This document shows, piece by piece, positions 7,388-60,341 of a stretch of 64,000 bases of DNA. The notes beneath the pieces are model-generated. The model did not search any database. It was given only the letters and a program-made list of their open reading frames with translations, and had not been told where the DNA came from. Origin of the DNA: Fluviispira vulneris (lineage in GTDB: Bacteria > Bdellovibrionota_B > Oligoflexia > Silvanigrellales > Silvanigrellaceae); NCBI RefSeq assembly GCF_014281055.1, contig NZ_JACRSE010000006.1, positions 124,001 to 188,000 of the forward strand, written 5' to 3'. A program made the position numbers and the translations under genes. Positions within the stretch are counted from its first letter, which is position 1; each line of letters starts with the position of its first letter.

Positions 7388-8278
7388 TTATAATTTATTA
7401 AGTTCTGAAAGAGATTTTATACCCATCATTTTTAGATCAGTTACATATATTATTTTATTATCTATAGATTTTATTAAAAACTTGTTTAATTCATAAATCC
7501 ATTTAGATTTATAATCTATAATATTTGAAAAATAATTTAGAATTAAAATGGTATTATATATTTTAGAATCTTCGTTCTTAGATTTTTCCCATAAATCATA
7601 TAATTTTTCTGGTTTCTTAGGAATTTTCATTCGACATGATGTTAGCTTTTTATTCCAAAGACGTCCATGATGAGCGCATATATTTCTAACAACATTTATA
7701 TTTCTTAAACATGATTCAAAAACTTCATCGTCTAAGTGAAATTCTCTGCTTATATCTTTTTTTAAATTTATTTTTAGATTTGAATATAAATTCACCAATG
7801 TACCAAAAGAAAAACTTTCACAAATTGACCATATTGGTGGAAAAATAGGACTGCTATAGTTTGTCCTATAATGAACTAGAAAATCTTCTTTGCTGATAGA
7901 ATAATTCTTCATAATATCAGACAGATGACTTATATGTTTATCCGTTTTTTCAAAATTCTTTGTATCGATATAAGCGTGTGAGTCATTATTTTTTATCGCT
8001 AAAGTATAAGCCCATATTGTCCTAAATGAAATTTCGAATGATTCTATTGCTTCTAATATTAATAATCTAAATTTTTTATCAAATAAATATAAATTTACAA
8101 TCCGTTCTATACTCGTATTATTATGATATTTATGATTTTCACTATCAATTTTTTCTTCAAAGATTTTCCAATACCCACTTAATCTATAGTAATTTATGTG
8201 TTTAAGTGTATTTTGTGCAAAGTCTTCATTTGTAATTATCATACCTCTAGATTTGAGCAGATCTACCTTTTCACTCAA
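7388..8278 (-). CDS. Abi_2 (AbiD/AbiF-type) abortive-infection HEPN protein
   Basis: A 296-aa protein with the Abi_2 family pattern: LLKSRGMII near the N-terminus, INYYRLSGYW, FDKKFRLLILEAIESFEISFRT, and the HEPN-like RNase motif RNICAHH (R-x4-H, about residues 196-202). Family knowledge: these proteins stop phage growth, probably by RNA cleavage. The listed start is a TTG without a ribosome-binding site. Upstream, ATG at 8296-8298 is followed by a run of eight A. With one more A that frame would give MKKKPLNLSEKVDLL, a typical Abi_2 N-terminus, so the gene may be frameshifted or switched at that tract. It lies directly outside the prophage attL. Confidence 0.85.
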   Translation of the reverse strand: MSEKVDLLKSRGMIITNEDFAQNTLKHINYYRLSGYWKIFEEKIDSENHKYHNNTSIERIVNLYLFDKKFRLLILEAIESFEISFRTIWAYTLAIKNNDSHAYIDTKNFEKTDKHISHLSDIMKNYSISKEDFLVHYRTNYSSPIFPPIWSICESFSFGTLVNLYSNLKINLKKDISREFHLDDEVFESCLRNINVVRNICAHHGRLWNKKLTSCRMKIPKKPEKLYDLWEKSKNEDSKIYNTILILNYFSNIIDYKSKWIYELNKFLIKSIDNKIIYVTDLKMMGIKSLSELNKL

Positions 8279-8345: not shown

Positions 8346-8400
8346 CAAAAAAAGACTCCCCGCTTTGAGCTTCTTCGAGAGGCTTGGGAAGTATTGTTAA
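8346..8400 (-). ncRNA. Putative small RNA / leader upstream of the Abi gene
   Basis: On the minus strand a promoter (see 8407-8433) would start transcription near 8400. The transcript reaches a terminator-like hairpin: ACTTCCC pairs with GGGGAGT (8386-8392 with 8355-8361, one G-U) and is followed by seven T (8347-8353). That makes an RNA of about 55 nt just before the Abi gene. Type III toxin-antitoxin loci have this promoter-RNA-terminator-toxin order, and AbiF proteins have been linked to adjacent noncoding RNAs. The antitoxin role is inference. It could also be a simple transcription attenuator. Confidence 0.45.
8347..8392 (-). terminator. Terminator-like hairpin between small RNA and Abi gene
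   Basis: A 7-bp stem (8355-8361 with 8386-8392, one G-U pair) encloses a 24-base loop and is followed on the minus strand by T7. The long loop makes it weaker than a textbook terminator, so some read-through into the Abi gene is expected. Confidence 0.45.
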
Positions 8401-8486: not shown

Positions 8487-8521
8487 TTTAAAATGGCGGA
8501 GAGCGGGGGATTCGAACCCCC
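8487..8521. repeat. attL (35-bp core)
   Basis: A perfect 35-bp copy of 44378-44412, covering the CCA end, acceptor arm and T arm of tRNA-Ser on the minus strand (CCA at 8494-8496). It is the leftover 3' end of the host tRNA gene after integration. Sequence diverges immediately after 8521. Confidence 0.95.
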
Positions 8522-8551
8522 TCCGGAGCACACGACGGTACTCGACGGCTC

Positions 8552-8582
8552 GCGGCGGTTCCTGCGGCGGTTTTTGCGGCGG
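8552..8582. repeat. Three GCGGCGG heptamers at exact 12-bp spacing beside attL
   Basis: GCGGCGG occurs at 8552-8558, 8564-8570 and 8576-8582. Two CGACGG words lie just before (8533-8538, 8543-8548). Regular short repeats this close to a core site suggest integrase or excisionase arm-type binding sites. This is inference from position. Confidence 0.4.
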
Positions 8583-8646
8583 CACTCGCTGCCTTACTTT
8601 AGAAAGCGGTCATCTACTCGGAGGCCGCACGACAACCCACCATAAA

Positions 8647-8699
8647 ACAAAGGCACAGATACACTAACAGAAGTGATGGCAGACGGCGGTGCCTTTTGT
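8647..8699. repeat. Inverted repeat near attL
   Basis: ACAAAGGCAC (8647-8656) faces GTGCCTTTTGT (8689-8699), leaving a 32-base loop. It could be a hairpin RNA, a terminator for leftward reading, or a protein site. No gene covers it. Confidence 0.3.
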
Positions 8700-8726
8700 T
8701 GCCTCCGCTACGGCCTTCTTTACTGT

Positions 8727-8950
8727 GTCTGGCAGTTGCGAAAAGAACCCAACCCTAAAATCACAGTTGCTATAATTTAAGACAGTTATTTGAGGCTGGT
8801 ACGTTTATTATAGTATACTTTAGTATATATAAAATATTATTATTAATTAATAATAAAATATAGAGAGAGGATAGGAGTTTGAGAAACTCTGTTTTTATCG
8901 TTTTCTCAATTTTATAGAGAAGGGTTGGGCTTTTTACTCAACCGCCAGAC
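8727..8950. repeat. Left copy of a ~225-bp element with imperfect inverted ends
   Basis: The element opens with GTCTGGCAGTTG and closes with CAACCGCCAGAC. Its 30-bp ends match as inverted repeats at 25 of 30 positions. The AT-rich core carries a rightward promoter-like pair, TTGAGG and TATACT 18 bases apart (about 8789-8818). A second copy in opposite orientation lies at 42436-42664 near the other prophage end. No protein is encoded. It could be a duplicated early regulatory region, an invertible promoter cassette, or a MITE-like element. Confidence 0.7.
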
Positions 8951-9213
8951 TATAGCACACAGCCGCACACCGCAGCAGCTCCCGCACCTCGCCTGAAAAG
9001 CCTGCCACTCTCCCGCCGTTAACTACAGCCCTTGGAAATGTATAACAGCATGCTAAAATCGGCGATTTTTACAATACGCTGTAGTGTCTGCAGCTTACCA
9101 ATCGTTGAGCGGCCGATTTCTTTGGTTATATTTTAGTTTTTGCAAAAATTTTGGCCATATAAAAATTATTATAGCAGGTTATGGTTTTTGGAGAAAAAAT
9201 CTATCGCAACAGA

Positions 9214-9242
9214 TTGACATGCCTAGGGAAAAGTTATAAAAC
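9214..9242 (+). promoter_or_regulatory. Probable early rightward promoter
   Basis: A perfect TTGACA (9214-9219) is followed by TATAAA (15-base spacer, 9235-9240) or TAAAAC (17-base spacer, 9237-9242). Transcription would start near 9249, at the 21-bp repeat described next, and run into the leader and early genes. Confidence 0.5.
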
Positions 9243-9246
9243 TTGG

Positions 9247-9267
9247 TTACGAGAAAAACACAAGAGA
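9247..9267 (+). repeat. 21-bp direct repeat, copy 1 (leader element)
   Basis: A 21-bp word starting TTACGAGAAAAAC lies at the predicted start of the early transcript and is repeated exactly at 9707-9727. It is followed by a hairpin TTTGTTG/CGACAAA (one G-U pair). Two exact copies of a noncoding word in the early leader suggest an RNA or protein recognition site such as an antitermination site. This role is inferred. Confidence 0.5.
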
Positions 9268-9436
9268 CTTTGTTGCCCAAGTGCGACAAACCTCAGGCAG
9301 GTAAGCACTCCGTCGCACTACCAATGCTAGGATATAGCCTAACTGACCTACTCGGCGGCTGCTATAAAAACCCCCGAGGAAGCCCAATTGCACCAACAAT
9401 TGAGGAAAAAGTATACTCCCGCAAGGAGATGTGAAA

Positions 9437-9520
9437 ATGAGAGAGCTTAGTCCTCTCATTAATGTGTTTATAAACAAATTTTATGGGCACAGTAATGAGC
9501 GATACTTACCCTACTACTAA
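9437..9520 (+). CDS. Small ORF (27 aa) with start codon inside a hairpin
   Basis: AAGGAG (9423-9428) is 8 nt before an ATG that opens a 27-codon frame (MRELSPLINVFINKFYG...). The start codon is embedded in a perfect 8-bp inverted repeat, AATGAGAG (9436-9443) with CTCTCATT (9453-9460), so translation could be blocked by RNA folding. The peptide has no recognised family. It may be a leader peptide of the early operon. Confidence is limited by its size. Confidence 0.35.
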   Translation: MRELSPLINVFINKFYGHSNERYLPYY

Positions 9521-9706
9521 ATTTAAATAAAAAAACCACAACACGTTAGTTGCGGACAGATATTGCTATATTTTCAATTATTGCATTTTTAATAAAATTA
9601 TATATATATATAAAAAGGCTATGCGCCAATATTGCTATAAAATACCAGCGCACTTAATAATTACATCGAAATTACGAGAGCCTTCGCCACCACATTTTTT
9701 GTTAGT

Positions 9707-9727
9707 TTACGAGAAAAACACAAGAGA
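9707..9727 (+). repeat. 21-bp direct repeat, copy 2
   Basis: An exact second copy of 9247-9267. It is enclosed by TCGCCACCA upstream and TGGTGGCGA downstream, which would display the repeat in a loop of roughly 35 nt in RNA. Confidence 0.5.
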
Positions 9728-10057
9728 TGGTGGCGATATTCTATTTTGCGAATGTGTTTTTAACGTTTCGATTACCAGTCGAAACACACACTCCAGCGCG
9801 CGTACATGACGGGCACTAAAACTACTATAGCTATACATAAATTTAAGTCAAGGGTTTACCAGCACGTATCGGTAAAATATTTTTACCGCAGGGTACTACC
9901 ATACATTTGTATATCACTAAAATCACTACCTAAAAATTTTTAAAATTACAAAAATAGGGTAGGAGGGTATACTACAATTAAAGTATCAATAGCTCTCTAA
10001 AATCTATAAATGCTCCCACTAGGCCAGCAAAAACCTGAAGAACAAAGGAGAAATCAA

Positions 10058-14089: not shown

Positions 14090-14887
14090 ATGACAGCTAT
14101 CATCATGGGCGAGAACGAATATCGCAGCCTCGACCGATTAAATTTTTCAACATTCAAATACATTTTACATTCGACAAAAAAATATTTACTGCAAAAAGAG
14201 AATCCGTGGGCAGGCAACGACGCAACCCGACTTGGAAGTGCTGCGCACGCATGGCTGCAAAATGACAAAGATAAAGTGCATTTTGAGCCCGATTTATCAG
14301 GCATAAAAACAAAGGCGGGCAGTGACGCAAAAAACCCCCGAAACACGACGGAAGGGAAAGGAATTCTCGCAGAATTTAAAAAGTCGCTACCCGCGGGGGC
14401 TATTATCGTACCACCAGACGCGTTAGAAGTGCTCACAGGCATTGAAAAAAGTTGGCAGGAAAACGACGACGTGCAGCGGTTGCGCGAAAAAATAACGCAC
14501 ATAGAGCGAACACACATTTTCACGTATGACGATTTAAAATTTAAGGCGAGACTCGACGAAGAAGGCGACGATTTTGTAACCGATTTAAAGTCGACTAGCA
14601 CAGACGCGAGTAGGGAAAATGTTTATAGTATTATTAAAAGTAAACACTATGACATGCAGGCAGCGACGTATCTTGTCGGCAAATCTGAGGAGACGGGAAT
14701 TCCTATTTTAGAAATTCCGTATTATATGGTTTTTTTAGAAACGTTTGCGCCGTACGATACCTATGTTTACCAGCTTTCAAAAGCGGTAATTACTGAGGGA
14801 TTGCGAAAATTAAATACCGCAATTGATTTGTACCGCAGCCAGATTTTAGCAGGCGAAAAAATTTATAACAGATTAGCTGTAGTTTAA
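14090..14887 (+). CDS. PD-(D/E)XK exonuclease, RecE/DUF3799-like
   Basis: A 265-aa protein resembling phage RecE C-terminal/DUF3799 nucleases. It has RLGSAAHAWL (helix with conserved His), KARLDEEGDDFVTDLKST with the metal-binding core (Asp165-x-Lys167), and YDMQAATYL downstream, as in lambda-exonuclease-like folds. Family knowledge: these degrade dsDNA 5'-3' to leave ssDNA for recombination or repair. No RecT-like annealing protein is recognisable nearby; the preceding 134-aa gene is the only candidate partner. Confidence 0.82.
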   Translation: MTAIIMGENEYRSLDRLNFSTFKYILHSTKKYLLQKENPWAGNDATRLGSAAHAWLQNDKDKVHFEPDLSGIKTKAGSDAKNPRNTTEGKGILAEFKKSLPAGAIIVPPDALEVLTGIEKSWQENDDVQRLREKITHIERTHIFTYDDLKFKARLDEEGDDFVTDLKSTSTDASRENVYSIIKSKHYDMQAATYLVGKSEETGIPILEIPYYMVFLETFAPYDTYVYQLSKAVITEGLRKLNTAIDLYRSQILAGEKIYNRLAVV

Positions 14888-21620: not shown

Positions 21621-23032
21621 CTATTAATCCCTCGCGACAAAAGATACGCAGCAATTCGCGGGTCGATTCCAGACGTCGAAAGCGCTTTTAATATTTTAGA
21701 TTTTTGCGCGGCATTTATAGTTAGCGCTGCGGTTTCTCCTGCCTTGGTTCGCATTGCCGGAATTAGTGATAGTGCTCCTATCGCGCCGCCAGTTTTTCCT
21801 TCCGCGGCAGCCCCCGCCGCCGCTCCCGCCGCACCTAAAAATCCAATTGCGGAATTGCCGCCCATGCTGGCCTTCCTCGACAATAATTCGTCAACCATCG
21901 TTGTGTTGCTATAATCTGACAGCATTTTTGCATATTGCGGCTCTGCCGTCGCTGCTGTTTTTATTTCAACATCTCGCAGCGCTGAGCGACCTAAATCCAA
22001 CCCAATTTTAGATTTTTCGGCATTTCCAAACACGTCTCGCGTCTCCCGTCCGATTTTCGATTTTAGGTCAACTAACGTTTTAAAATCCATGTTATTGTTA
22101 GCGTTAGATAATAATTTAATATCGTCGCGCAAATTGTTTACTTGATTTACATGTTTCGCGTCCAAATTTAGACCTGGTGTTAAATGGCTCGCTCGTTTAT
22201 CAACTGCCGCAAGCACATCGTCGGTTGAAACTACAGGCAATCTGCCGCGCGCATCCGATAATTGCATACCTATATTTTTTAAATTTTTAGTCGCTAACTC
22301 TTCTTTATGCGTTAATGTTTTTAACGGATTTATGTAGCCATTATCTAACGCAAACTGTGCAATTCCGTCAGCATTCTCGCCCATTTTTGTAAAATCCGAC
22401 CGCGTTGCGCCCAGCGCTTTTAACGTTTGATTTTTTTTAAATCTATCCAGAGCTCTCGGAATATTCCCGACTCCCCTGGCGGCAACTCCAAGCGCACCCC
22501 CAACTCCCGCCCCTAACGCAGTGTCTTGCGCCCGCCTTTCCCACGTGTCGCCTTCGGAACCTCCGAACCCTCCGACAGCCCCTTCTGCGGCCATTCGTGC
22601 AAGTGAAATACTGCCGCGGCCGACGCCACTTGGAATAGCTGCGGCAATACCTCCAGTGAAATTTGCAACTGGATGCTCAGCTTCGGCATTTTTCTGCAGC
22701 CACCGCGTAACATCACGGTCTTTTATGTAGCCGTTCTGTATTGCGTCGAGTAAGCTTTTATCTTTTTTTCCGTTGCCCCACAAATACCCAATTCCTCTTC
22801 CTAGCCCGCCCACCGCTCCATTTATTTCATCAGTAAACCCAAACGTCGCACCGTCAGCCGCACCCAGAAGCAGGGCTTCCAACGTGTTTGTTTTATTTTC
22901 AGGTTTTACGCCAGCAATTCTGTATAAATCATCATCAGACATATTTTCTATATTATTATTTGCAGGTTTTTTATTTGAGTTATTTACAATCTCTAGTAAC
23001 TCTTCATTACTATATTCGCGTATATTTTTCAT
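21617..23032 (-). CDS. Large Gly/Ala-rich internal virion (ejection) protein
   Basis: A 471-aa protein. Two Gly/Ala-rich hydrophobic regions (near residues 48-75 and at 395-420, GFLGAAGAAAGAAAEGKTGG) could insert into membranes. Middle part is helical. It lies in the block after the portal, where podoviruses encode DNA-ejection proteins. Start overlaps the previous stop (ATGA). Inferred function: part of the trans-envelope channel during DNA delivery. Confidence 0.6.
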   Translation of the reverse strand: MKNIREYSNEELLEIVNNSNKKPANNNIENMSDDDLYRIAGVKPENKTNTLEALLLGAADGATFGFTDEINGAVGGLGRGIGYLWGNGKKDKSLLDAIQNGYIKDRDVTRWLQKNAEAEHPVANFTGGIAAAIPSGVGRGSISLARMAAEGAVGGFGGSEGDTWERRAQDTALGAGVGGALGVAARGVGNIPRALDRFKKNQTLKALGATRSDFTKMGENADGIAQFALDNGYINPLKTLTHKEELATKNLKNIGMQLSDARGRLPVVSTDDVLAAVDKRASHLTPGLNLDAKHVNQVNNLRDDIKLLSNANNNMDFKTLVDLKSKIGRETRDVFGNAEKSKIGLDLGRSALRDVEIKTAATAEPQYAKMLSDYSNTTMVDELLSRKASMGGNSAIGFLGAAGAAAGAAAEGKTGGAIGALSLIPAMRTKAGETAALTINAAQKSKILKALSTSGIDPRIAAYLLSRGINR

Positions 23033-24309
23033 TGAATTTTCGCACCTCTGCGTTTTAGCTCCTCTAACGCCGCGTTGGCTGTAATGTTGCCACCGTTTGT
23101 ATTAAAATTATTTAATTCAGTTTTTTTCATACTCTTTGCAGAATTAAAAGCGTCCAGTCGAGTATCGAGGTCATGCAGATAATTATCTATCATTTTGTCT
23201 GCTGTTTTATTTGCGTATAAAACCCCGCCAAACTTGCGAAACGGCAACATATATTTTTGAGCAGACGCAACTTCTCCTTCTCTCGCAACAGATTCAGGGT
23301 CAACTAATTTTGCAAAATCTACCGCCATTTGGTAAATTTTTGCGTCCATTTTTGTGCCCGCATCTCCGAATGGCGTTACAGTTCCATTTTGTTTTATTAA
23401 TTCCTTTAATTCGTTAGCATTAGTTTTTAAAATATTATATCTGTACGCCGCTTCCCTCCGCTGAGAGTCCTCTTTTGTTTCTTTTTCTTTCGCTACTCCC
23501 GCTCCGATATTTTGTAAATTGTGAGAATCTAAACCATTATATTTACTAACGTCACGAGCATTAAAAGCTGTAGCATTCAATTTACGTTCGAGTTCCCGAG
23601 CTTTCTGTAGCTCGCCGCGACTTCTGTACGTCTGCGCGGCTTTATATATTACGTCCGCGTCTGCGATTTGTTTTAGCTGCTCGCCAATAGCTGCGGATAA
23701 ATCATAATTGCCGAGAATTTCCGCTTGCCGCTGTTGATTTTTTAACGCAGAAAATCTAGCAAGCGCGGCAGATTGATTGTATGTTCTGTCGCTTTGTGCG
23801 TCAGATAGCTGTAATTTTTTTAGCTGCGAGTCTATCTGGCCGTTGTATAAGTCTTGCTCACCCTGCCTTAGTTGCTGCTCGCCTCTTTTAATTTGTTGGT
23901 CACTCAACAACAACCCTTTTTTATTTTGCTGCAGTTGTACATCCGAAAGCGCAGAATCTTGGCCGAATTTTTTAAATTTCATATCGTCGTAAATATTTTC
24001 ACGGCCGAGCGCTAAATTTTGAGCTGCCTGCGATTTTTTACGTTGCTGCAGTTGCATATCGTCGTTCAAATTTCGCAGAGCAGAATCTCCGAATTCTTTT
24101 AAATTTGTATTTACTGGCGCTGTGTGGCCGCCAACGCTTCCGACCAACGATTGCGCACGTAGAAGATTATCTGCAAAAATTGCAAGATTATTTGCAGAAC
24201 GTGCGCCATGTATATCGCTAGCGTTCGCAAATTTGTCCGCCTCGCTATTTTCGCTCTCGTATTTTTGCATTAGTTTCTCTAGCGCGGAAATGTATTTATC
24301 AGTAGCCAT
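23029..24309 (-). CDS. Gln-rich helical internal virion protein
   Basis: A 426-aa protein dominated by helical, Gln-rich sequence with imperfect repeats (ALSDVQLQQNKKGLLLSDQ, QIKRGEQQLRQGEQDLY, DSQLKKLQLSDAQSD). No enzyme motif seen. The repeats and location suggest a structural ejection protein. It overlaps the upstream gene by 11 bases and the downstream one by 4. Confidence 0.6.
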   Translation of the reverse strand: MATDKYISALEKLMQKYESENSEADKFANASDIHGARSANNLAIFADNLLRAQSLVGSVGGHTAPVNTNLKEFGDSALRNLNDDMQLQQRKKSQAAQNLALGRENIYDDMKFKKFGQDSALSDVQLQQNKKGLLLSDQQIKRGEQQLRQGEQDLYNGQIDSQLKKLQLSDAQSDRTYNQSAALARFSALKNQQRQAEILGNYDLSAAIGEQLKQIADADVIYKAAQTYRSRGELQKARELERKLNATAFNARDVSKYNGLDSHNLQNIGAGVAKEKETKEDSQRREAAYRYNILKTNANELKELIKQNGTVTPFGDAGTKMDAKIYQMAVDFAKLVDPESVAREGEVASAQKYMLPFRKFGGVLYANKTADKMIDNYLHDLDTRLDAFNSAKSMKKTELNNFNTNGGNITANAALEELKRRGAKIQ

Positions 24310-25306
24310 AGCGTTTTAACCTTTCGTCTTCTCTCCGTTGCGAATCTAAATACATTAAACCGGTTGTTACTCCGTTTGTTATTCCTTGAATTGCGCTGTT
24401 TTGGTCGCGTGCGTTCGAGTTTATACTGTTTATTTTATTGTTAGAATTTCCAGTTTGTGCAGTAATTTTAGCCATTGCATTGTCGTATTTTTGCTGCTCA
24501 ATATTGTTTCTAAAATTGCGGCGCTCATACATTGAATTATTCCGCAATTCTGTATTTCTGTCTGAGTTATTCTGTCGTGCTGCTAAATTCATGCGTTGTG
24601 CGTCATTTAAAACATCTGCATTGCGTTGATTGTAATTATTGCGATTTGCTGCACTGCGGGCGTTATAGCTGTTAATAATATCAGCATTCTTAAACGACAT
24701 ATTCTGTTCTGACTGTTCTATCTGCCCGCCTAAATTTGCAGAATCCCGCAAAGCCTGCAGTCTGTTTGCATACGCTGTAAGTGCGGCGGTCGTGCCGGAA
24801 TTACTCGCATTTTGGCTGTTGTTCTGTTGTGTTGACAAAGCTTTCGCAAACCCTAGCCCACTACCGACGCCCGCGCCTCTGCGTGCATATTCGTCTAAAA
24901 TCGACGCTTGTTGCGATTCATTTTGAGCTGCTGACTCGCGCATCGACTGTTCAATTAATGCTTGGGAAACACTGTCAGTGCCTGTATTTCCCAGTTGCCG
25001 CAATCGCTGAAGCGCTGACAGCATTGCTTCTTGCCCCTGTTCTCCAACCGCAGAACGGCGAGCTAAATGCGGTGCCTGCTCTTCTATATATTGTGCAAGT
25101 TGTGGTTCGTATTTGCCAACAAGCGCAAACTCTTCGGGAGTTATTTGCGTCATATCGAACGTAGGGTCTGAAATTTGGTCGATTAATCGCTGTATACGTG
25201 CGTGTTCTGCGGCGGTTGCTTTGTTAGCGTCGCGCGATGTTTTGTATTGTAGTGCGCCTCCGAGGAGGCTGCCGCCGAGAATTGCGGCGGCTATAGGTAA
25301 AACCAT
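24299..25306 (-). CDS. Glycine-zipper internal virion protein (335 aa)
   Basis: N-terminal hydrophobic stretch AAAILGGSLLGGALQYK is followed by Gln/Asn-rich helical sequence with many NxxR repeats. Comparable to podovirus DNA-injection proteins by position and composition; no catalytic motif such as a transglycosylase Glu was seen. Confidence 0.6.
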   Translation of the reverse strand: MVLPIAAAILGGSLLGGALQYKTSRDANKATAAEHARIQRLIDQISDPTFDMTQITPEEFALVGKYEPQLAQYIEEQAPHLARRSAVGEQGQEAMLSALQRLRQLGNTGTDSVSQALIEQSMRESAAQNESQQASILDEYARRGAGVGSGLGFAKALSTQQNNSQNASNSGTTAALTAYANRLQALRDSANLGGQIEQSEQNMSFKNADIINSYNARSAANRNNYNQRNADVLNDAQRMNLAARQNNSDRNTELRNNSMYERRNFRNNIEQQKYDNAMAKITAQTGNSNNKINSINSNARDQNSAIQGITNGVTTGLMYLDSQRREDERLKRYGY

Positions 25307-25319
25307 TTATAAATATCTC

Positions 25320-26678
25320 CTACCAAAATTTTAATTTTTTAATTCCACGCTCAATTTCCCTTCCAACTTTATTCGCGCCATTATATAGGGACTTATTCAT
25401 GGAATACATACCACCGGTTATGCCGTCTAGCAGTAAATTATTTCCTCCGCCGCCTCCGGTTTCGGCAGTATATTCTGGAGTATAGGCTTTAGCCGCTGCG
25501 GCTTTTGCTTGCTCTGCTCGTGCATTAATTAACGAATTTATTGCGTTACGGTAGTCACTCTCGCGAGCTGATACGTTAATTTCTGGCGCACTTTCTCTAG
25601 CGCGCTGTTGCATTCCAAGCAATGCGCCAATTTTATTAAATCGGCCGTCGAGAAACATATTTTCGTTATATGTTTGCATTGGCGAAACAAAATCGTTTTC
25701 GCGAACGTCATCTAACGTGAAATTTTTTAATGTATTTTCCAGCAATTTATTTTTTACATTTAGCGCCGCTTCTTGATTTGCTTTAATGTAATTATCGCCC
25801 GCGCCTTCCATGATTTTTTCAGCAAACATGTTTTTGTAATCTTGGCTTTTTTTCCACTCTGCGAGTTTTTGTAATTCTGCACTACGGCGTGCATTAAATT
25901 GCGCTTGTCTTTCGCTTGCGGCAGATTGCGCACTACGCATTAATTCATTTCGGAACATATCGCCGTCACTATATAATCGTTTTGAATTTTCGTCGACCGT
26001 GCGTTTACTGTTGTCTAACAACGATTTCTCGTTATTTAAAAGTTGCTCTTTTCCTGCTCTAAATCCGTCAATTTGTGTCAAATCGTTTCGAATTGCGCGA
26101 CCGGCTTGCCCCGAATTTCTGTACAATAGTGCGTCTAATCTACTACCGCCGCGTGTACTTCCGTTTTGATTTTGTAACTGATTTGTAAGGCCATCAATCG
26201 TCGATAAATTCGCTGTCGCTGACGTATCTGCATTGTAATATTTTGATTTAGATTCAATTGCCCCTAATGTATTTTTAGCAACATCTGGAGTTGCGAGAGT
26301 GCTTAAACGGTCGTAAACATCTTTTCTTTCGATGTTTTCAACATCCGAGCGACCGTTATAATTATAATTTTTTGCAATATCGCCAACGTTTCTGCTGTAT
26401 TCTTTGGTCGAATTTTGCAGCTGTGTGTTGGCGTCGTCGAGGCTCTGTTTTATTCCAGAGCTTAGCTGTCCCATGTTGGCGCCATAATTTGCATCGTAAA
26501 TCGCATTAGGATTTTTAAATGTACTTTCATGTGCGGCCGAAGCATTTTCTGGCGCATTTTTAACTCCAGTTTCGCCCGACGGCGTAGGTGTTTGGCCGAT
26601 TATTTGCCCTTGTGGCCTACGTAATGCTGGTTTTTGTTCGTCAATTAGATTAGAAATTTTTCTGAAAATGTAAGCCAT
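25320..26678 (-). CDS. Internal virion/structural protein (452 aa)
   Basis: A 452-aa helical protein, low in cysteine, with Asn/Gln-rich segments and a Gly-rich stretch (ETGGGGGNNLLLDG, about residue 410) before a basic tail (REIERGIKKLKFW). Directly after the portal gene with a one-base gap. Likely the first of four ejection or portal-associated proteins. Family not recognised. Confidence 0.55.
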   Translation of the reverse strand: MAYIFRKISNLIDEQKPALRRPQGQIIGQTPTPSGETGVKNAPENASAAHESTFKNPNAIYDANYGANMGQLSSGIKQSLDDANTQLQNSTKEYSRNVGDIAKNYNYNGRSDVENIERKDVYDRLSTLATPDVAKNTLGAIESKSKYYNADTSATANLSTIDGLTNQLQNQNGSTRGGSRLDALLYRNSGQAGRAIRNDLTQIDGFRAGKEQLLNNEKSLLDNSKRTVDENSKRLYSDGDMFRNELMRSAQSAASERQAQFNARRSAELQKLAEWKKSQDYKNMFAEKIMEGAGDNYIKANQEAALNVKNKLLENTLKNFTLDDVRENDFVSPMQTYNENMFLDGRFNKIGALLGMQQRARESAPEINVSARESDYRNAINSLINARAEQAKAAAAKAYTPEYTAETGGGGGNNLLLDGITGGMYSMNKSLYNGANKVGREIERGIKKLKFW

Positions 26679-31419: not shown

Positions 31420-32337
31420 CTATATTCTCAATGATTTATGTATTCTAGGTTTATTCAAAAGTCGGTTACCGTTCACATACGGCCGAGGTTTTCCCGAAAC
31501 TCGCGGCGATAAAACACCTTCCATGATGTTGCGAGCTCGGTCTAAATCGGGCTTAAATGCCGCGAGAGCTTGCAAATCTTTTTGCGCTTCTAAAATTTTA
31601 ACGCCCGCCGCTTTGATTAAATACTTGTAACACTCATCGGGCAAAAGTAAAACATCTGTTTGCCCCGCTAGCGAAACTCTGTCGCCTGCTTGCAAATTTT
31701 TTGGCAATAACTCTGGCTTAAATTGCATTTTATTGCCGTCAATTCTCGCGACTGCAATATCTATTGCCAGTATGTGCGGTTTGCATCTCGCATTTGCTGC
31801 AATAAAATCGTACATACTGCGGCCGGAAAAACTTTTGTTTGCGTTTGTTGCTAGCGTAATTTCGCCGGTGCTGTAGTCTACATTAGAAACTACGGCAACA
31901 TTAATGTTTGATACGAGCCGCGAATGTTTAATAAAATAACTAAATGTTAATTCGCCGCAATTCGCTGTAGGCGTAGGAACGAGCGCAATATCGTCGCCCA
32001 CAAAATAATATTGCGACGGTCTGCCTTTGTTATGCTCGCTATCTGCGTTAGAAAATTCTATATTTTCGAGTTCTCTATTTTCGTGCCACACTGTTTTAAT
32101 ATTAGAGCCAATTGCTCTATACGGAACAGGGTATAGTTTTCTATTATTTTCAAGAAATACATTACTATTAAATAGCAGCCTGTCGCTGTGCAGGCGCAGA
32201 ATCATCGGCACGATGGTGGATTCTATTTCTTCGTCAACCATCGCTAAAATATCATCGTCGCTAAAGCGGAAGTCTGTTGAAAATATTGTATTATTGCGTT
32301 TGATAGATGTTAAAATATCACTCGATGTATATGCCAT
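31420..32337 (-). CDS. Head-tail connector / tail adaptor (P22 gp4-like)
   Basis: 305 aa. FSDDDILAMVDEEIESTIVPMILRLHSDRLL and PVPYRAIGSNIKTVWHENRELENI with a VPTPTANCGELTFSYFIKHSRL strand resemble gp4/gp11-type adaptors that bind below the portal. Directly precedes the nozzle gene. Assignment is by pattern and context. Confidence 0.65.
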   Translation of the reverse strand: MAYTSSDILTSIKRNNTIFSTDFRFSDDDILAMVDEEIESTIVPMILRLHSDRLLFNSNVFLENNRKLYPVPYRAIGSNIKTVWHENRELENIEFSNADSEHNKGRPSQYYFVGDDIALVPTPTANCGELTFSYFIKHSRLVSNINVAVVSNVDYSTGEITLATNANKSFSGRSMYDFIAANARCKPHILAIDIAVARIDGNKMQFKPELLPKNLQAGDRVSLAGQTDVLLLPDECYKYLIKAAGVKILEAQKDLQALAAFKPDLDRARNIMEGVLSPRVSGKPRPYVNGNRLLNKPRIHKSLRI

Positions 32338-32618
32338 TATATTTTGATTTTCTTATTTTTTGGTTCGGCTGCAATGGAAATCACCGACAATTTTGCTGCT
32401 TTCGGCTTTGCTTTGCGTTCGTTTTCAGACTGTAGCCACTCGTTAAATTTGCTTTTAAGATTTTCTTTCGGCGCTTCAGTTTCTTCTGCGGATTCGGCCG
32501 TATTTTCGGCCGCTTCTTTCAATTCCTCCGAAACTTTTGCAGTTTTTTCGCCGTGTCCTTCGGCCATTTTTTTATGTAATTGCTCAATTAACGTTTCCAA
32601 AATTTTTGCGATAGTCAT
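32337..32618 (-). CDS. Charged helical phage protein (93 aa)
   Basis: 93 aa, highly charged (Lys/Glu/Ala-rich), no recognised domain. It shares its stop base region with the start of the connector gene. Possibly an assembly or chaperone protein. Confidence 0.5.
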   Translation of the reverse strand: MTIAKILETLIEQLHKKMAEGHGEKTAKVSEELKEAAENTAESAEETEAPKENLKSKFNEWLQSENERKAKPKAAKLSVISIAAEPKNKKIKI

Positions 32619-32633
32619 TTTAGTTTTTCCCTG

Positions 32634-34112
32634 TTATTTATTTTTTTTGATGCTTAAATTGTAAGATAAGTTTATATAAAATTTATTTATAAATCCTTTT
32701 TTTTGCGAGAGTTCGCTAATAATTGTAGACTGCATGGGTATAGAGCTGCTTGTAATCAGTAACCCTACGTCACTTAAATACATTGACGTTAATTGCGGAG
32801 GGGTTTTTGTTACGAACATCAACCGTTGGCTTATTTCGCCAAAGCTATGTACGCTATACTCAAGTGTTGCATTAGGAAGCCAAGTTTTTGTAAAATCCCA
32901 ACTAGTTACTAGATTCATACCCGCTGCGGGATTTGCATACAATTCCATATCCTGCAGCCATGGGACATTTAATCGCAATGTTGCGGGAGCTGTTGTAGCT
33001 ATATCGTGCGTTAGAATGCTGTAAACACACCCTGACACAGTAATAGCATTACAACACTGAGATACAGCAAGCATTGAAATATGGAAAACATATTTGCCTG
33101 CAGTCAATATTGATTCGATAGCAACGTTCGGCCGATACTCATAAATTCCATTGCACGAAACAATATAATTTCCATTAACGTTCGTAAGTACAATCGAACC
33201 TTTTCCGAACAAAATAGCATCGGGAAACTCGCGCGCTTCGCCAAAAAATACCCTCGTAATTGCTGTTGTGTTTATCGGCCGTAATATTATGGATTCGCCG
33301 TTTCGCAAGCTCGCGGCCGCGGGAACTATAACGCCGCCGGCTGCAGTCATGTTAAGTGTATCAACAATAATCTCACGTGCATCTTTATTTATAGTATTTA
33401 TGTGCACGGGAGTTACAGTATCTCGTATAGTTAATACAGGACAAATAATTGAAATACCACTCGCGAACGATTTAACACCGCCAAATATTTGGGAGCTTGC
33501 CGTAATTATTCCCGCATTATTTTCGCCCGCGTCTATTAATTTCTCACTTACCGTTTTTGAAATTTTTTCATTTATTGTTTTAAATTCTTTTGTTACAAAC
33601 TCGCCAAAATCACTGCCGTTAATTTTAATATTATTTTTTGTCGCATCTATCGTTTTATTTGTAAGTTCGTCTTTGCTGTTCTTGCTAAACGCTACAGCAT
33701 AAAAATTGGAAATAACTCGCCAATCTCCACGATTATACAGCAATCCGATTTTTTGATTATCGCCACTTAAAATGTACTCTGTCGCGCTTTCAATTGTTGC
33801 ACCCGTTGCTGTTATTTTTATCGGCAGATTGCTAGCATTCCCGCTCTCATCCGCGATAATAAATGTTGAGCCTTCGTCGACTGCCGGTAAAACTACCGAC
33901 GACGGTTTGCTGCAATTAATTCCGATGTAATAATCATTTTGCGAAAGTGTTGTTGTCTCGTCCGTAGAAGTTCTCGCTGCGTATTTTTGGCCGTTAGTTG
34001 TTTGCGCGTTGTCAGCTAAATCCGCTAAAAAATCTGTTAATGACGGCCAGCCGTCGTCGCCAGCTTCTGGGATTGAATATTGATTGTTATTCCAATTTTT
34101 AATTAATGCCAC
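32634..34112 (-). CDS. Tail fibre protein
   Basis: 492 aa. The N-terminus NWNNNQYSIPEAGDDGWPSLTDFL matches the start of many podovirus/cyanophage tail fibres (W.G..Y.IP..GD..W..LT.FL). Then DYYIGINCSKPSSVVLPA and GSTFIIADESGNAS, a repetitive beta region, and a variable C-terminus likely to bind the host. It lies between capsid/holin and connector genes, an unusual place. Confidence 0.72.
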   Translation of the reverse strand: MALIKNWNNNQYSIPEAGDDGWPSLTDFLADLADNAQTTNGQKYAARTSTDETTTLSQNDYYIGINCSKPSSVVLPAVDEGSTFIIADESGNASNLPIKITATGATIESATEYILSGDNQKIGLLYNRGDWRVISNFYAVAFSKNSKDELTNKTIDATKNNIKINGSDFGEFVTKEFKTINEKISKTVSEKLIDAGENNAGIITASSQIFGGVKSFASGISIICPVLTIRDTVTPVHINTINKDAREIIVDTLNMTAAGGVIVPAAASLRNGESIILRPINTTAITRVFFGEAREFPDAILFGKGSIVLTNVNGNYIVSCNGIYEYRPNVAIESILTAGKYVFHISMLAVSQCCNAITVSGCVYSILTHDIATTAPATLRLNVPWLQDMELYANPAAGMNLVTSWDFTKTWLPNATLEYSVHSFGEISQRLMFVTKTPPQLTSMYLSDVGLLITSSSIPMQSTIISELSQKKGFINKFYINLSYNLSIKKNK

Positions 34113-34341
34113 GATTGTTCCTTAGATTTAATTTTCGTATGATACTTTCGTTTTTTACTTTCGCGGGCACTTTAGCTTTTTCGCCGACTTCTATCGCTAC
34201 TACTGCATCGGCGGCAACTAAAAATACCGAGGATTTTCCGAGGCGAAAATCTAAAAATTTATTTTTGAAAATATACTTGTCTGCCTCGATTTCCTTAATT
34301 TCTGAATTGCAGCCATTAAAATATTCAACATAGTATTTCAT
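34099..34341 (-). CDS. Small phage protein, unknown (80 aa)
   Basis: 80 aa; a Lys/Glu/Val-rich protein with a beta-rich middle (SSVFLVAADAVVAIEVGEKAK). It overlaps both neighbours (4 and 14 bases) and so is likely translated in sequence with the holin and tail fibre. Confidence 0.5.
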   Translation of the reverse strand: MKYYVEYFNGCNSEIKEIEADKYIFKNKFLDFRLGKSSVFLVAADAVVAIEVGEKAKVPAKVKNESIIRKLNLRNNRGIN

Positions 34342-34721
34342 TTTTGCACGCCTTTAATTTTCTCGTACGTTCTTAACCCACTTATTCCGAGTAATCCACA
34401 TAATACCGTCATAACTTCTTCAAAATCGAGCGACGGCAGCACTGTCAGAGGCTTCCCAAGCGCTTCTAAAATTATTAACAAGAGCGGCTGAATTAAAAAA
34501 TTGTACGCGAATATTATTGCACACACCCAGCCAACAGCCGGACGCCAGCCGGCCACGAAAATTGATTGATGTTTTGCTTCTACCGCATTGACATCTAGCT
34601 GTCGAAATGCGCCCTCTTGCTCTAGCCGCATGAGTTCGATTTTCGCTTTATTTGCGTCGTCGGGGTTTGGGAATATTTTGTCAAAAATTCCAGTCAACAG
34701 CGGTATTAATGCCGGCCACAT
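34338..34721 (-). CDS. 3-TM phage holin
   Basis: 127 aa with the pattern of the GTA/phage 3TM holin family: amphipathic start (ALIPLLTGIFDKIFPNPDDANKAKIE), then SIFVAGWRPAVGWVCAIIFA, a second segment FLIQPLLLIILEAL and a third at VMTVLCGLLGISGL. It should form the lysis pores that release the GH108 endolysin, which is encoded more than 20 kb away in the early arm. Confidence 0.8.
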   Translation of the reverse strand: MWPALIPLLTGIFDKIFPNPDDANKAKIELMRLEQEGAFRQLDVNAVEAKHQSIFVAGWRPAVGWVCAIIFAYNFLIQPLLLIILEALGKPLTVLPSLDFEEVMTVLCGLLGISGLRTYEKIKGVQK

Positions 34722-34750
34722 ATTTTTGCCTTTATTTTATTGTTGTATTT

Positions 34751-34778
34751 CGGCCGAATATTGTAATAATATCGGCCG
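34751..34778 (-). other. Strong hairpin after the capsid gene
   Basis: CGGCCGAATATT (34751-34762) pairs with AATATCGGCCG (34768-34778) with one bulged A and a 5-base loop. No T-run follows on the leftward strand, so it is more likely a partial terminator or an mRNA-stabilising structure that raises capsid expression above downstream genes. Confidence 0.55.
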
Positions 34779-34787
34779 TTACTTTAG

Positions 34788-36143
34788 TTAAGCTGCAGGG
34801 GCTTCGTCGTTAATGTTTTTAATTAATACCTGCTTTGCGGGAGCTCTGCACATAATATACATATCTGCGTATGTGTGAAATGCGTATGCACCTTGTCCGT
34901 CTAGCTGATAAAATAGTTTTTCGTCCGACATGCCTTCTATGGAAGTTGCAACATCTTGCGTACCGCTGCAAATCCAATCATCGAGTCTCAAAATAATTGC
35001 ATCGCCTTCCATCACATATCTATGTCCGACAATTTCAATTTCACCTTCGCTATACGCGAATTTAATCGATTTCGCTCCATTCTTTAATTCAGAACTATTG
35101 TAGGAAGAATCGAAACTTCTGTTAGCTAGCCCATCTGCCATGAGCGCATGAAACGAGCGCGGGTTAGCGTAACAGCGTAGGGTTCCGTACGTCCCACCTG
35201 CATTTACTGCATCCGCTGTGCCCATTTCTATTGTTTTAAATGACAGCGATTTTCCGCCGCAATCAAACACATTCGCAGACCAGAGTGGGAATAGCTGAGC
35301 ATCAATATTAAACTGCTTGCCTTTATTTTGAAGTATTGCTTTAACGCCAATCATTTCTTGGGATAATTCCATGCCCTCAAAAGCTAAAACATGCGAGCCA
35401 ATTTTAGTTGCGGCTGTCGGTTTAAAATCGACTTTTAAAATTCCGAGCGATGTATCGCACGAAATATATCGGCCTTCAGCTACAACTTCTCTATTTGGCT
35501 GTTGCAATTGTTTAACCTTAATTCCTTGCATTCCAACCCATATTCCAGAGGCCATGTCGCCTGCTTGTAATAAAATATAATTACCGCTTGCGTTACTGCA
35601 AACTCCGTTTGTAAACGACAGTTCGCCATAGAGGGAGCTTGTGAGTTTACCCGTACCGTTAGCAAATTTTTGTTTGCGATACTCGCCTGTAGTATATGCA
35701 ACTCTTCCTAATAATACGTCGGAGTTTTGTCCGTGTATTTTTACAATCTCGAGAAAACGACGGTGTGAAATTAAATTATTTTTAACAACGTGTTTAGTTG
35801 CTTCTACAAACGCCGTTTCGCTGCTAGCACTTCTGCCGATAGTTGCCCATGGCACGATTGAACGTAATACGGAAATAGACGGCGTAACCTCGGATTGTTT
35901 AATAGCGCCCGCGACCGCAGGGTTAATATTAAATACGTCGTCGCCCGTGCCGGCAAATGTGATTCCCACCTCGCTGCCTAGAGTGATAGATTCAACGTAT
36001 TTATTACCTGCTTTCTCCTTCGTAGAGAAAGGAATATCTTTTGTGATATGCAAATCATCTGTTGGGATTAAGCTTGTATTTAGTTTACCGTAGTGTGTTT
36101 TAAAAAGCTCAAGATTTGAGCTATTCGAAATTTGTCCTGCCAT
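34788..36143 (-). CDS. Major capsid protein
   Basis: 451 aa, following scaffold and a small head protein. Sequence features fit the P22 coat/N4 gp56-like major capsid group: N-terminal NLELFKTHYGK, DIPFSTKEKAGNKYVESITLGSEVGITFAG, and a central WVGMQGIKVKQL domain. C-terminus GEIEIVGHRYVMEGDAIILRL. Position, length and composition support capsid. No other candidate exists in the late arm. Confidence 0.75.
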   Translation of the reverse strand: MAGQISNSSNLELFKTHYGKLNTSLIPTDDLHITKDIPFSTKEKAGNKYVESITLGSEVGITFAGTGDDVFNINPAVAGAIKQSEVTPSISVLRSIVPWATIGRSASSETAFVEATKHVVKNNLISHRRFLEIVKIHGQNSDVLLGRVAYTTGEYRKQKFANGTGKLTSSLYGELSFTNGVCSNASGNYILLQAGDMASGIWVGMQGIKVKQLQQPNREVVAEGRYISCDTSLGILKVDFKPTAATKIGSHVLAFEGMELSQEMIGVKAILQNKGKQFNIDAQLFPLWSANVFDCGGKSLSFKTIEMGTADAVNAGGTYGTLRCYANPRSFHALMADGLANRSFDSSYNSSELKNGAKSIKFAYSEGEIEIVGHRYVMEGDAIILRLDDWICSGTQDVATSIEGMSDEKLFYQLDGQGAYAFHTYADMYIMCRAPAKQVLIKNINDEAPAA

Positions 36144-36165
36144 TTATTTATTATCCTTTATTTAA

Positions 36166-36663
36166 TTATAATTGCTCATATTCAATATCTACGTGTATAA
36201 AACCACTCTCAAGTGTCGAGAGTTTTCCAGTACTGTCAACATACCTTCCTACGATATGATTTTTACCTGTAATTACTGCCCCATTTGTTGCTGTATTTGG
36301 AAGCGGGGCTTTTTTATTTAACCCTTCAACATAATCTACGTTTCCGCTCGCTCCGATTTGCGTAAATTTAACGCCCAGAACTCTGCGGGCAGAGCCGTGA
36401 AGGAGACAAAATGCGAACGCATTTGCTGCGAGTGCTACAGTTCCGAATGTATTATTGCACTGTACATCGCCCGCTTCGCCGCAAAATTTATCAACCTCGG
36501 ATTGCGATAAATCTGCACTTGTAAACCCAAAAATCACGGGCGCACCAAATCCATCGCATTGGACGGCTTTATTTTTCCCTGTGATTTTAAATCGTAATGC
36601 TAATGTGTCCACCTGCGAGCGCTGCAAACGTTCGTCTGGTAAAATTTTATTATGTGTTGCCAA
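36166..36663 (-). CDS. Probable head decoration/accessory protein (165 aa), TTG start
   Basis: GGAGAAG lies just before a TTG start on the minus strand (product MATHNKILPDERLQRSQV...). Beta-rich, with GFGAPVIFGFTSADLSQSEVDKF. Located between scaffold and capsid genes, where many podoviruses place a decoration or capsid accessory protein. Family not recognised. Confidence 0.6.
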   Translation of the reverse strand: MATHNKILPDERLQRSQVDTLALRFKITGKNKAVQCDGFGAPVIFGFTSADLSQSEVDKFCGEAGDVQCNNTFGTVALAANAFAFCLLHGSARRVLGVKFTQIGASGNVDYVEGLNKKAPLPNTATNGAVITGKNHIVGRYVDSTGKLSTLESGFIHVDIEYEQL

Positions 36664-37646: not shown

Positions 37647-38099
37647 ATGGAAATTGAAAAATCTAAAATAAATTTACAATATGTTGGGGTGGTGTGGAGT
37701 GGCGGATTGCTGCGGCGAGATGGTACAAAAATTAAAGCCGCAGCTGTTCGCAAATTATTGCTAAAATTAAATCCAACGCTCACAGAGCGAGAACTCTCAA
37801 AAATTATTTACAATTGCCCGTCGCTAAATCCAAATTTTGTGCCCGACGCGAAAATGATGGCGACGGCGATTAAACTAAAAAAAATGGAGGCGCGCGAAAA
37901 AAAACTTGAAAATGAACGGCGAAAACGTTTAAAAATTAAAAAAATAATGAAAGAAGCGAAACCAGACGATTTTAATTTACTAAATTATTTACGCATGCCG
38001 ATGTCTCACTGCATTGCAGCAATACGCTCGAGACACGATTGCTTGAGCGAAACTTCTGCAAAAATGTTAGTCGGGCGTTGGGTGCGAGAAGGGCTTTAA
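37647..38099 (+). CDS. Candidate lysogeny regulator (150 aa), leaderless
   Basis: I place the start at ATG 37647, at the predicted transcript start; an upstream in-frame ATG (37617) lies inside the promoter. The 150-aa product is very basic (KLKKMEAREKKLENERRKRL) and ends in a possible helix-turn-helix (MSHCIAAIRSRHDCLSETSA). It is read opposite to the surrounding late genes and faces the late promoter. Those facts suggest a repressor or late-gene regulator. No known repressor family is recognised. Stop overlaps the next ATG (TAATG). Confidence 0.55.
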   Translation: MEIEKSKINLQYVGVVWSGGLLRRDGTKIKAAAVRKLLLKLNPTLTERELSKIIYNCPSLNPNFVPDAKMMATAIKLKKMEAREKKLENERRKRLKIKKIMKEAKPDDFNLLNYLRMPMSHCIAAIRSRHDCLSETSAKMLVGRWVREGL

Positions 38100-38464
38100 T
38101 GAAAATACATGCAAATAGTGTTGTCGTGCTGCAGAGTACCAGAATAGAAAATCAACTCGTGAATTTCACGGTCGAACTACCACCAAACACTTACAATATT
38201 GAAACTTTAGCGGACGGCGATAAGCTCACAATATGTGCAGCACACTTCAAAACATACCAGTGTGTCTTTACTACGTACGTTAAAAAGCTTGGCGAACGTG
38301 TATTGCTGTCAAACTGGTCGGCCTCAGTTACTTTAAAAAAGCAGAACGCACGTATGCGGAAGCAATTGCAGTGTGAAAAAACTTTAGTTCAGCTCGTGAC
38401 TGACACTTTGAACGGTCTCGGCGGGGTTCTTCTGAATTTCTCTACAAAGTACTCGCCGAGCTGA
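38099..38464 (+). CDS. Rightward phage protein, unknown (121 aa)
   Basis: Starts at the ATG sharing one base with the preceding stop. The frame listed from 38039 upstream would overlap the first gene. 121 aa, beta-rich first half, basic second half (LKKQNARMRKQLQCEK). Co-transcribed with the candidate regulator. It ends 7 bases before the terL stop on the other strand. Confidence 0.5.
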   Translation: MKIHANSVVVLQSTRIENQLVNFTVELPPNTYNIETLADGDKLTICAAHFKTYQCVFTTYVKKLGERVLLSNWSASVTLKKQNARMRKQLQCEKTLVQLVTDTLNGLGGVLLNFSTKYSPS

Positions 38465-42435: not shown

Positions 42436-42664
42436 GTCCGGCGGATGAGTAAAAAAACTCAACCCTTCTTTTGTTCTAAAATTGAGAAAACGATAAAAAC
42501 AGTGTTTTGCAAACTCTTATCTCTCTCCTATATTTTATTATTATTAATTAATAATATTTTATACTCTAAAGTATACTATAGTAACTGCAGAGCGCTTCAA
42601 ATAGCTGTTATAAATTATAGCAACTTTAATTTTAGGGTTGGGTATTCCCACTCAACCGCCAGAC
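42436..42664. repeat. Right copy of the ~225-bp element (inverted relative to the left copy)
   Basis: Opens GTCCGGCGGATGAGT, closes CTCAACCGCCAGAC. The 31-bp ends match as inverted repeats at 24 of 31 positions. The core is the reverse complement of the left copy (8727-8950) with some changes. Its promoter-like pair (TTGAAG, 19 bases, TATACT) points leftwards into the end of the moron gene. Its position just inside the integrase region, mirrored at the other end, argues for a function. Confidence 0.7.
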
Positions 42665-43348
42665 GGAAGCACGCGCCCGCCACACTGCCGTCTTTCTTCC
42701 GTACCGCTTGCCGTACCTTGGCAGAGAAACCCGCCGCATAAGGGCGTTATATTGCCATTCTCGGCCATTTTCTAACGTACTCTAGCAGAACTTTAGCGAA
42801 ATTGTAGTGCGAGAATAAACCGCCGCAATCTCATGCACTTGACGTTCACCACCGCACTGGCTGCAAAATTTTCGGCTCCTGTAATTACAGCTACTTGCGC
42901 TGTTATAGTTTCGCCCGCACACGAACATGTGGGCTTAAATGCTGATTGTAGCGTGCGCCGGAGTCCCGCGAAACCGTTTTGGGGTTACCGCCACCCGCCA
43001 AGGTAACACTACAGCCCGCCTCCGCATGCGACAGAATGCAGTAGTTACGAGGGTTTCTGAAACTCACTTATGATAACTGTGATTATGATGTGTGAGATTC
43101 GGCGATTTTGGGGTGTGGGAGCGTGCGGGAATTGCTGCGGTTTGTGGCGGAATCGGGCATGGTATTGCGGCCAGATGCCTCCCTTTCGCACATGTTTGCG
43201 CGCTCTCAACCACCATAACACGCCCGCAGAAACGACGGAATAACGGAAGTTTGCCACCGAGGGCGGCATGTGACTTGCGTACGCTTGCGGTAATTGCTAC
43301 GATTTGTTGCCGTCTGTCGCCACTTTAAAAAAAATGGAGACAGATATT
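42665..43348. other. Noncoding region between the right element and integrase
   Basis: 684 bases, GC-richer than the host, with short inverted repeats and scattered CCGCC/GCGG words. Open frames here have no ribosome-binding site and no family pattern. Likely holds the integrase promoter, arm-type recombination sites and possibly a small regulatory RNA. The last bases before the ATG include AATGGAGA, which serves as the integrase ribosome-binding site. Confidence 0.45.
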
Positions 43349-44305
43349 ATGGATTTATTTTGTGATTATGTAACGGAGTGGATTGGAAGTTTAAACGAGA
43401 GGTATTCGGCTCAGACGATACGAAGTTATTCGAGAATAGCACGGAAGCACTTTAAACATTTTGCAGAAATGCAACTAGAAAATGTGAGTCCCGCACTACT
43501 CCTCAAATATCTGGTTATCAAAGCAACGCAGGATAAGCGTAAGTTTAAAACGACAAAAAACATTCTGTCAACGTTTTCGGCTTACTGTGATTTTTTACTT
43601 TGTCGAGGGCTGATAGAGAAGAATCCGTGTGTAGACGAAACTCTACTTTCGAGACTGCGGGCGCATTACAGAACCGCAAGGGACAAAGTACAAAAGCGAA
43701 TGTACGCGCTGAGTGTCCCACACGCTGTCCTATTACTGCAGCGAGCATACTGTAAAGGTTACCAGTTCGGCCTTGCTACTGAAACGTTGCTGTGTACTGG
43801 GCTTCGACTTGGTGAGCTTGCGGGGCTTGAGATAAACGATGTGTCACTTACGCACATTGTAGTCTGTAGAGCTTTTGACCCTGAAGGCAAGCAAATGCAG
43901 ATGTCGGCGAAATGGGGCAGCAATGGCAGCGTACCCATTCCCGCACACCTCGGCGAAAAGCTGGAGCTTTTTTTTAAAAGCAGAAAGCGCGCCGGAGACG
44001 AAAGTACTTGTGCATTCCCATATGTGCGAGCCCGTGCTGATGTATTTTCTAAACGTATTGGTAAAATATCAGACGACTTAGGATTGCCGCACACTACCGC
44101 ACACGTACTCAGGAGAACCGCGTTAACTTGGCTTGTCGCTGAAGGCATTCCTCTCGCTGTGGTTCAGGCTGTCGCAAGACACAGTACTTCGGCGATGACG
44201 GAAAAGTACATAGATAAAAGGCAAGTGGATTCGACGGGAGCAACCGAAGCGATTGCGCGACGGCTAGGTAGTGACCGACGGCTCACGGCGGTGGGTGGCG
44301 ACTGA
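43349..44305 (+). CDS. int: Tyrosine recombinase (phage integrase)
   Basis: I choose ATG 43349 because GGAG is 9 nt upstream; a longer frame from 43304 lacks one. About 318 aa. N-terminal SAM-like domain (ERYSAQTIRSYSRIARKHFKHF). Catalytic domain: Arg in CTGLRLGELAGL, HVLRRT (His/Arg), ARHSTSAMTEKYID (His and nucleophile Tyr). It reads towards attR, 73 bases away. Recombines attP with the tRNA-Ser 3' end. No excisionase gene was identified. Confidence 0.93.
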   Translation: MDLFCDYVTEWIGSLNERYSAQTIRSYSRIARKHFKHFAEMQLENVSPALLLKYLVIKATQDKRKFKTTKNILSTFSAYCDFLLCRGLIEKNPCVDETLLSRLRAHYRTARDKVQKRMYALSVPHAVLLLQRAYCKGYQFGLATETLLCTGLRLGELAGLEINDVSLTHIVVCRAFDPEGKQMQMSAKWGSNGSVPIPAHLGEKLELFFKSRKRAGDESTCAFPYVRARADVFSKRIGKISDDLGLPHTTAHVLRRTALTWLVAEGIPLAVVQAVARHSTSAMTEKYIDKRQVDSTGATEAIARRLGSDRRLTAVGGD

Positions 44306-44377
44306 ACTAAAGTGCGAACGGGGGCTAGTTAAAAATCGGCATTTTGTGACAGCGAGATGTTAGCGCCACAGTAGGGT

Positions 44378-44412
44378 TTTAAAATGGCGGAGAGCGGGGG
44401 ATTCGAACCCCC
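44378..44412. repeat. attR (35-bp core) within tRNA-Ser
   Basis: Perfect match to attL (8487-8521). It covers the CCA end, acceptor stem and T arm of the intact tRNA gene, so integration keeps the tRNA functional: the prophage supplies the 3' end. Confidence 0.95.
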
Positions 44413-60290: not shown

Positions 60291-60341
60291 TTGCTAAAAC
60301 ATAAAGAAAAGAATTGCTTTAAAATTTTGTGGAAATTGCAA

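Follow-up and report, generated by a model that had tools for sequence, protein, structure and literature searches.

Temperate phages carry duplicated operator and promoter regions in which dyads recur at separate control sites. The sib retroregulator of phage lambda is a hairpin that lies past attP and is split from int upon integration, and the yeast 2-micron plasmid is a circle that isomerises through its inverted repeats. The pair of elements analysed here resembles each of these systems in part, and literature searches returned no usable described precedent for it.

Like the duplicated control regions of temperate phages, the elements present repeated dyads at separate regions, with half-sites that vary between relatives; unlike them, whole putative elements of 225 bp are inverted around int and attP, and no repressor gene was recognised. 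Like sib, the left element is a hairpin-forming sequence beyond attP and downstream of int, from which integration separates it; here, however, int has a further copy on its opposite side, a conserved RNA fold is missing from the core, and both processing and read-through are hypothetical. As in the 2-micron plasmid, inverted repeats lie in a circle in which recombination would invert one segment relative to the other, but the repeats are short and 82% identical, and both the isomers and a recombinase site are hypothetical. The elements share with bacterial MITEs (miniature elements in this sense being small and non-coding, with imperfect terminal inverted repeats) a general appearance, and differ from them in showing neither dispersal nor target duplication and in occupying orthologous positions in two phages.

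Paired elements around an integration module

The window (the whole 64-kb stretch of DNA that was analysed, from a 3.6-Mb genome) contains a prophage integrated at the 3′ end of a tRNA-Ser(CGA) gene (Table 1). The host, a Silvanigrella-like freshwater bacterium, probably belongs in or near Silvanigrellaceae, because the nearest relative of the phage infects Silvanigrella aquatica. Its genes encode DNA polymerase I-like and exonuclease VIII-like proteins (the latter at 14090-14887), a primase, a portal protein, a terminase and a tyrosine integrase. In relatives, host-side homology to the tRNA-Ser locus begins at 44376-44381, and one relative (L058) carries an identical 35-bp att core at its own tRNA-Ser locus. 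The original prediction had placed the two copies at both ends of the prophage; the att cores instead put the left copy 205 bp and the right copy 1.7 kb inside. In the circular phage, the two elements bracket about 2 kb (~1.95 kb) comprising non-coding DNA, int and attP.

Table 1. Positions in the window of the paired elements, their dyads and the integration site.
Feature	Position	Strand	Description
Left element	8727..8950	plus, taken as forward	Faces outward, in the direction of the DNA-replication operon; complementary arms, AT-rich core
Right element	42436..42664	minus	Faces outward, in the direction of the late operon side; matches the left element in inverted orientation at 82% identity
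Dyad TATACT-TT-AGTATA	8814..8827	none	Left core; same aligned position in four copies
Dyad TATACT-TTAG-AGTATA	42560..42575	minus-strand reading	Right core
attL core	8487-8521	none	35-bp sequence identical to the tRNA-Ser 3′ end
attR core	44378-44412	none	Overlaps the tRNA-Ser 3′ end
tRNA-Ser(CGA)	44385-44474	minus	Integration target
Tyrosine integrase (int)	43304..44305	plus	Between the right element and attP; Phage_integrase E 1.4e-16; phrog_1 E 3e-36
Integrase leader region	43190..43349	plus	Homologous to the 150 bp separating the left element from int in CP017838.1

The two copies had been described as mutually inverted, with inverted arms of ~30 nt, and this was confirmed. Using blastn, 8727-8951 matched 42664-42435 across 236-237 columns with 82% identity (E = 4e-49). 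The arm alignment scored 40 in the left copy, where the best of 2000 shuffles reached 26, and 34 in the right copy, where the best reached 23. The arms of the left element (8727-8756 and 8921-8950) are 30 nt long, with an 83% complementary match. RNA folding of the elements gave z-scores of -6.5 (left) and -7.4 (right), the left-element hairpin being stable on the plus strand, where it would lie beyond attP on an int transcript. The element has no Rfam match, and no conserved RNA fold of the core was found (consensus energy -1.1 kcal/mol).

A promoter-like core had also been proposed for each copy, and this held for the left one, which carries a promoter-like pair of hexamers (TTGAGG-18-TATACT, 9/12). 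In the right copy the hexamers are separated by a 19-nt spacer, and no promoter was called on that strand. Promoter-like matches numbered 12 against 5.9 ± 2.6 and 8 against 6.3 ± 2.8 in shuffles, a modest excess in AT-rich DNA; the hexamers do not clearly exceed chance.

Among the roles put forward in the original prediction, a duplicated operator region fits best. A dyad sits at one common alignment position in the four copies, namely the left and right elements here (L and R) and their counterparts in the related phage CP017838.1 (L′ and R′, where it reads TATAGTAAC-TACC-GTTACTATA), with changed half-sites. It is the best shared symmetry of the four aligned cores (columns 77-80), with arms of 6 bp in L, 6 bp in R and 9 bp in L′ and R′. 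Between the phages the half-sites change on both sides and the symmetry is retained; the joint dyad statistic for R and R′ was equalled in 2 of 400 shuffles. The exact right-element dyad has one match in the window, in the right element itself, and looser matches (2-3 mismatches) occur in the left element and at 25469 and 62472. In CP017838.1 the exact dyad is confined to the elements, including an assembly duplicate of R′. Downstream of the dyad, the AT-rich block AATAATAATAAAATATAG is nearly invariant and is found in all four copies or nearly so. The promoter-like hexamer pair of the left copy falls in this region. No repressor or regulator gene was recognised among the proteins scanned.

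Other features lie close to the att sites and in the host flank. Just outside attL, an Abi_2 family protein (7388-8278, minus strand, E 2e-55) and, upstream of its gene, an abiF RNA (8355-8391, minus strand, 39.7 bits) form a candidate abortive-infection system. Two GC-rich stretches, by attL (8546-8709, with tandem GCGGCGGTT repeats at 8552-8575) and upstream of int (43133-43285), are alike in direct orientation (z 5) and are possible integrase arm sites, although the repeat word is common in the prophage. A role in integrase arm binding was rejected for the element arm motif GGCGGTT, because this word and CGGCGG are simply common in the prophage (47 CGGCGG against 4.9 expected). Rightward of the prophage, the host flank contains several diverged repeats, roughly 66-79% identical, at 57580-62780, and a 36-bp perfect palindrome at 62398-62433.

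The orthologous pair in a related phage

Protein searches with the terminase and the DNA polymerase led to CP017838.1, a 43-kb Silvanigrella aquatica phage record that is collinear with the prophage at 65-77% DNA identity across most of its length. A profile search located an orthologous inverted pair at 34339-34615 (minus, E 2e-52) and 37698-37973 (plus, E 7e-48), with a profile that included these CP017838.1 copies; a plain blastn search, too, aligns both halves of the pair, with 79-80% identity across the core. The pair occupies the same backbone places, after the moron genes and before a non-coding leader region, and flanks that phage's integrase. A third copy, a duplicate of R′, lies in an exact 3,258-bp duplication (22520-25777 and 31582-34839) flanked by N runs in the deposited record, and both duplication and third copy are probably an assembly or scaffolding artefact. 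The CP017838.1 assembly thus has gaps and a suspect duplication near its right copy, and the lineage sample is two phages: protein-query searches of viral and genome contigs gave no further relatives. Other genomes of the genus encode related integrases (~30-35% identity), none of them with an element nearby. An inverted repeat beside the integrase of locus L068 was discarded; it overlaps a coding stretch and is unrelated to the element. Near the right element of CP017838.1, 33609-33854 encodes an 81-aa protein that looks Sm/Hfq fold-like by eye and has no Pfam match.

Identity between the paired elements is 81.5% for L and R and 90% overall for L′ and R′ (96% over 268 bp), against 60-67% between the two phages. 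The copies have probably been homogenised within each phage lineage, that is, by concerted evolution, because an inverted duplication is unlikely to have arisen twice, independently, at the same pair of places. Gene conversion would be the homogenising process.

Two kinds of inversion had been suggested for the locus, and they fared differently. An invertible promoter finds no support in the cores: at both sites, the orientation of the core with respect to the backbone is identical in the two phages. The similarity reported just outside the right arm, as if the core could flip within fixed flanks, is not significant (p about 0.10), and as for a dedicated invertase by the elements, only the tyrosine integrase lies nearby. 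Inversion of the 33-kb phage interior, which in the circle amounts to inversion of the bracketed segment, is indirectly supported by the integrases, which lie on opposite strands relative to the backbone. Here int lies on the plus strand and begins on the side of the right element, and in CP017838.1 it lies on the minus strand and begins next to the left element; the replication and structural genes have the same orientation in both phages. The integrases share 44% identity, against 73% for the capsid protein, 79% for TerL and 76% for the portal protein. Taken together, the opposite strand and the greater divergence of the integrase indicate, from sequence comparison, that the bracketed module has been rearranged or swapped. 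The int leader is homologous between the phages (z 5.9-8.0 against shuffles, under three scoring schemes), and leader and int therefore moved together. The flank inside R compared with that inside R′ gave z 4.2, 2.3 or 0.8, depending on scoring; if this collinearity is real, the inversion breakpoint would lie inside the bracketed segment and not at the elements.

Two non-coding stretches near the left element are also conserved between the phages. The stretch 9615-9880 (CP017838.1 38636-38860) holds a predicted RNA hairpin with compensatory changes, in which both partners differ for 10 of the 42 predicted pairs, 5 of them in a single stem of 9 pairs. RNA folding gave z -4.2 for 9600-9840, with no Rfam match, and the stretch is probably an undescribed phage RNA. 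Upstream of it, 9242-9506 (CP017838.1 38206-38489; about 73-76% identity) is preceded by TTGACA-15-TATAAA here, with TATACA as the second hexamer in CP017838.1. Double changes affect two of its pairs only, and searches of other phage records gave no match beyond CP017838.1. Both stretches contain a direct repeat of 20-21 nt (9247-9267 and 9707-9727 here; 38210-38229 and 38716-38735 in CP017838.1) that is exact inside each phage and different between them (TTACGAGAAAAACACAAGAGA; TTTATTCAGAACTCACGAGA), a within-genome likeness of the kind seen for the paired elements.

Possible roles of the paired elements

The reading that we prefer, plausible if somewhat short of probable, is that of a duplicated, inverted, outward-facing regulatory region that borders the integration module and is homogenised by recombination. 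An ancestral inverted duplication would have placed a cis-acting control region on both sides of int and attP. In each outward-facing copy, complementary arms would enclose an AT-rich core with a promoter-like region and an operator-like dyad, and a single regulator recognising the dyad would act at both sites. Recombination between the copies (gene conversion), probably by the phage's own functions, such as the exonuclease VIII-like protein, would keep them alike. Because the copies are inverted, they could also recombine with each other or with the pair of another phage, and the int cassette would then be flipped or replaced. The promoter and operator functions, the shared regulator and the use of the elements as breakpoints are all putative.

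Against this reading, an antisense gene (41719-42417, plus strand) lies in the path of the right copy. A role of this copy in late expression is doubtful, because of the antisense arrangement and because a better promoter-like site, at 41576-41548, belongs to the late operon itself. We also consider it rather unlikely that int and attP form a reversible, exchangeable cassette through recombination at the elements, such that int would meet the same element upstream and downstream either way.

A live alternative, though an unlikely one, is that the elements mark a recombination boundary only: long inverted repeats without a regulatory role, at which the int-attP cassette inverts or is exchanged by homologous recombination, giving two circular isomers. 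This would account for the likeness of the copies within each phage, for an integrase whose strand relative to the backbone differs between the phages and whose divergence exceeds that of the backbone, and for a leader that moved with int, and the phage has an exonuclease VIII-like gene. Yet conservation is concentrated in the dyad and the AT-rich core, which homologous recombination alone would not need; the two phages may be collinear in the flank inside R; and copies that are only 82% identical here are a poor substrate.

Control at the RNA level, of the retroregulator type, is also live but quite unlikely. The int transcript would cross attP into the far element, the arm hairpin would be processed and int lowered, and integration would separate the two. 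Here int would read through attP into the left element, and in CP017838.1 it reads away from L′, such that a transcript crossing the gap would enter R′; in both phages the transcript would carry the sense strand of the element. Arm duplexes on that strand are better than those of shuffled sequences in all four copies (0, 0, 1 and 15 of 1000 shuffles did as well), and the folding z-scores of both elements in this phage point the same way, but the opposite strand folds equally well in this phage and the core lacks a conserved RNA fold. Moreover, the attP of CP017838.1 is hidden in a sequence gap at 34840-36637, and a second copy upstream of int is left unexplained.

Paired replication sites, with origin or initiator-binding elements and an AT-rich unwinding region, would suit both the near-invariant AT-rich block of all four copies and a phage that encodes its own DNA polymerase and primase. 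We regard them as improbable, since no iterons were seen, no initiator gene was recognised, and two inverted copies have no evident reason.

Searches for further copies bear on whether the element is mobile. The host genome and related phages were checked as the original prediction had proposed, which gave two copies here, with no third elsewhere in this genome, and the orthologous inverted pair in CP017838.1. A DNA search of 13 other genomes of the family found no copy, and a profile search of 55 other genomes of the class found no convincing one, only weak AT-rich matches (e.g., E 0.0055 in one genome, G057). Three weak matches at family level (G004, G005 and G007) were rejected as AT-rich stretches without arms, and none of 34 matches to a 15-mer arm pattern in viral contigs extended to an element. 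Queried with its flanks, the left copy had no match among phage DNA records (CP017838.1 was missed by DNA and found via proteins), nor did the right copy among plasmid DNA records. The terminal inverted repeats are significant in both copies here and at shuffle level in those of CP017838.1, and no target-site duplication is present (flanks ACTGT/TATAG and TTTCA/GGAAG). A MITE-like element or insertion-sequence remnant duplicated within the phage, as the short, non-coding sequence with imperfect terminal inverted repeats of 30-31 nt had suggested, is thus highly improbable, given two copies only, orthologous sites in the related phage, no flanking target duplication and terminal repeats not kept as a DNA inverted repeat in CP017838.1.

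On the sequences compared, the inverted pair is a built-in feature of the phage and not a mobile repeat, because the one related phage recorded carries it too; we infer that it is a phage control feature. If the duplicated, inverted regulatory region is the correct reading, it would be a simple architecture that keeps two control regions alike and makes the integration cassette easy to flip or replace. It would also help explain changes of integrase and target site among related phages, in a phage lineage of Silvanigrella-type bacteria of which two genomes were found.
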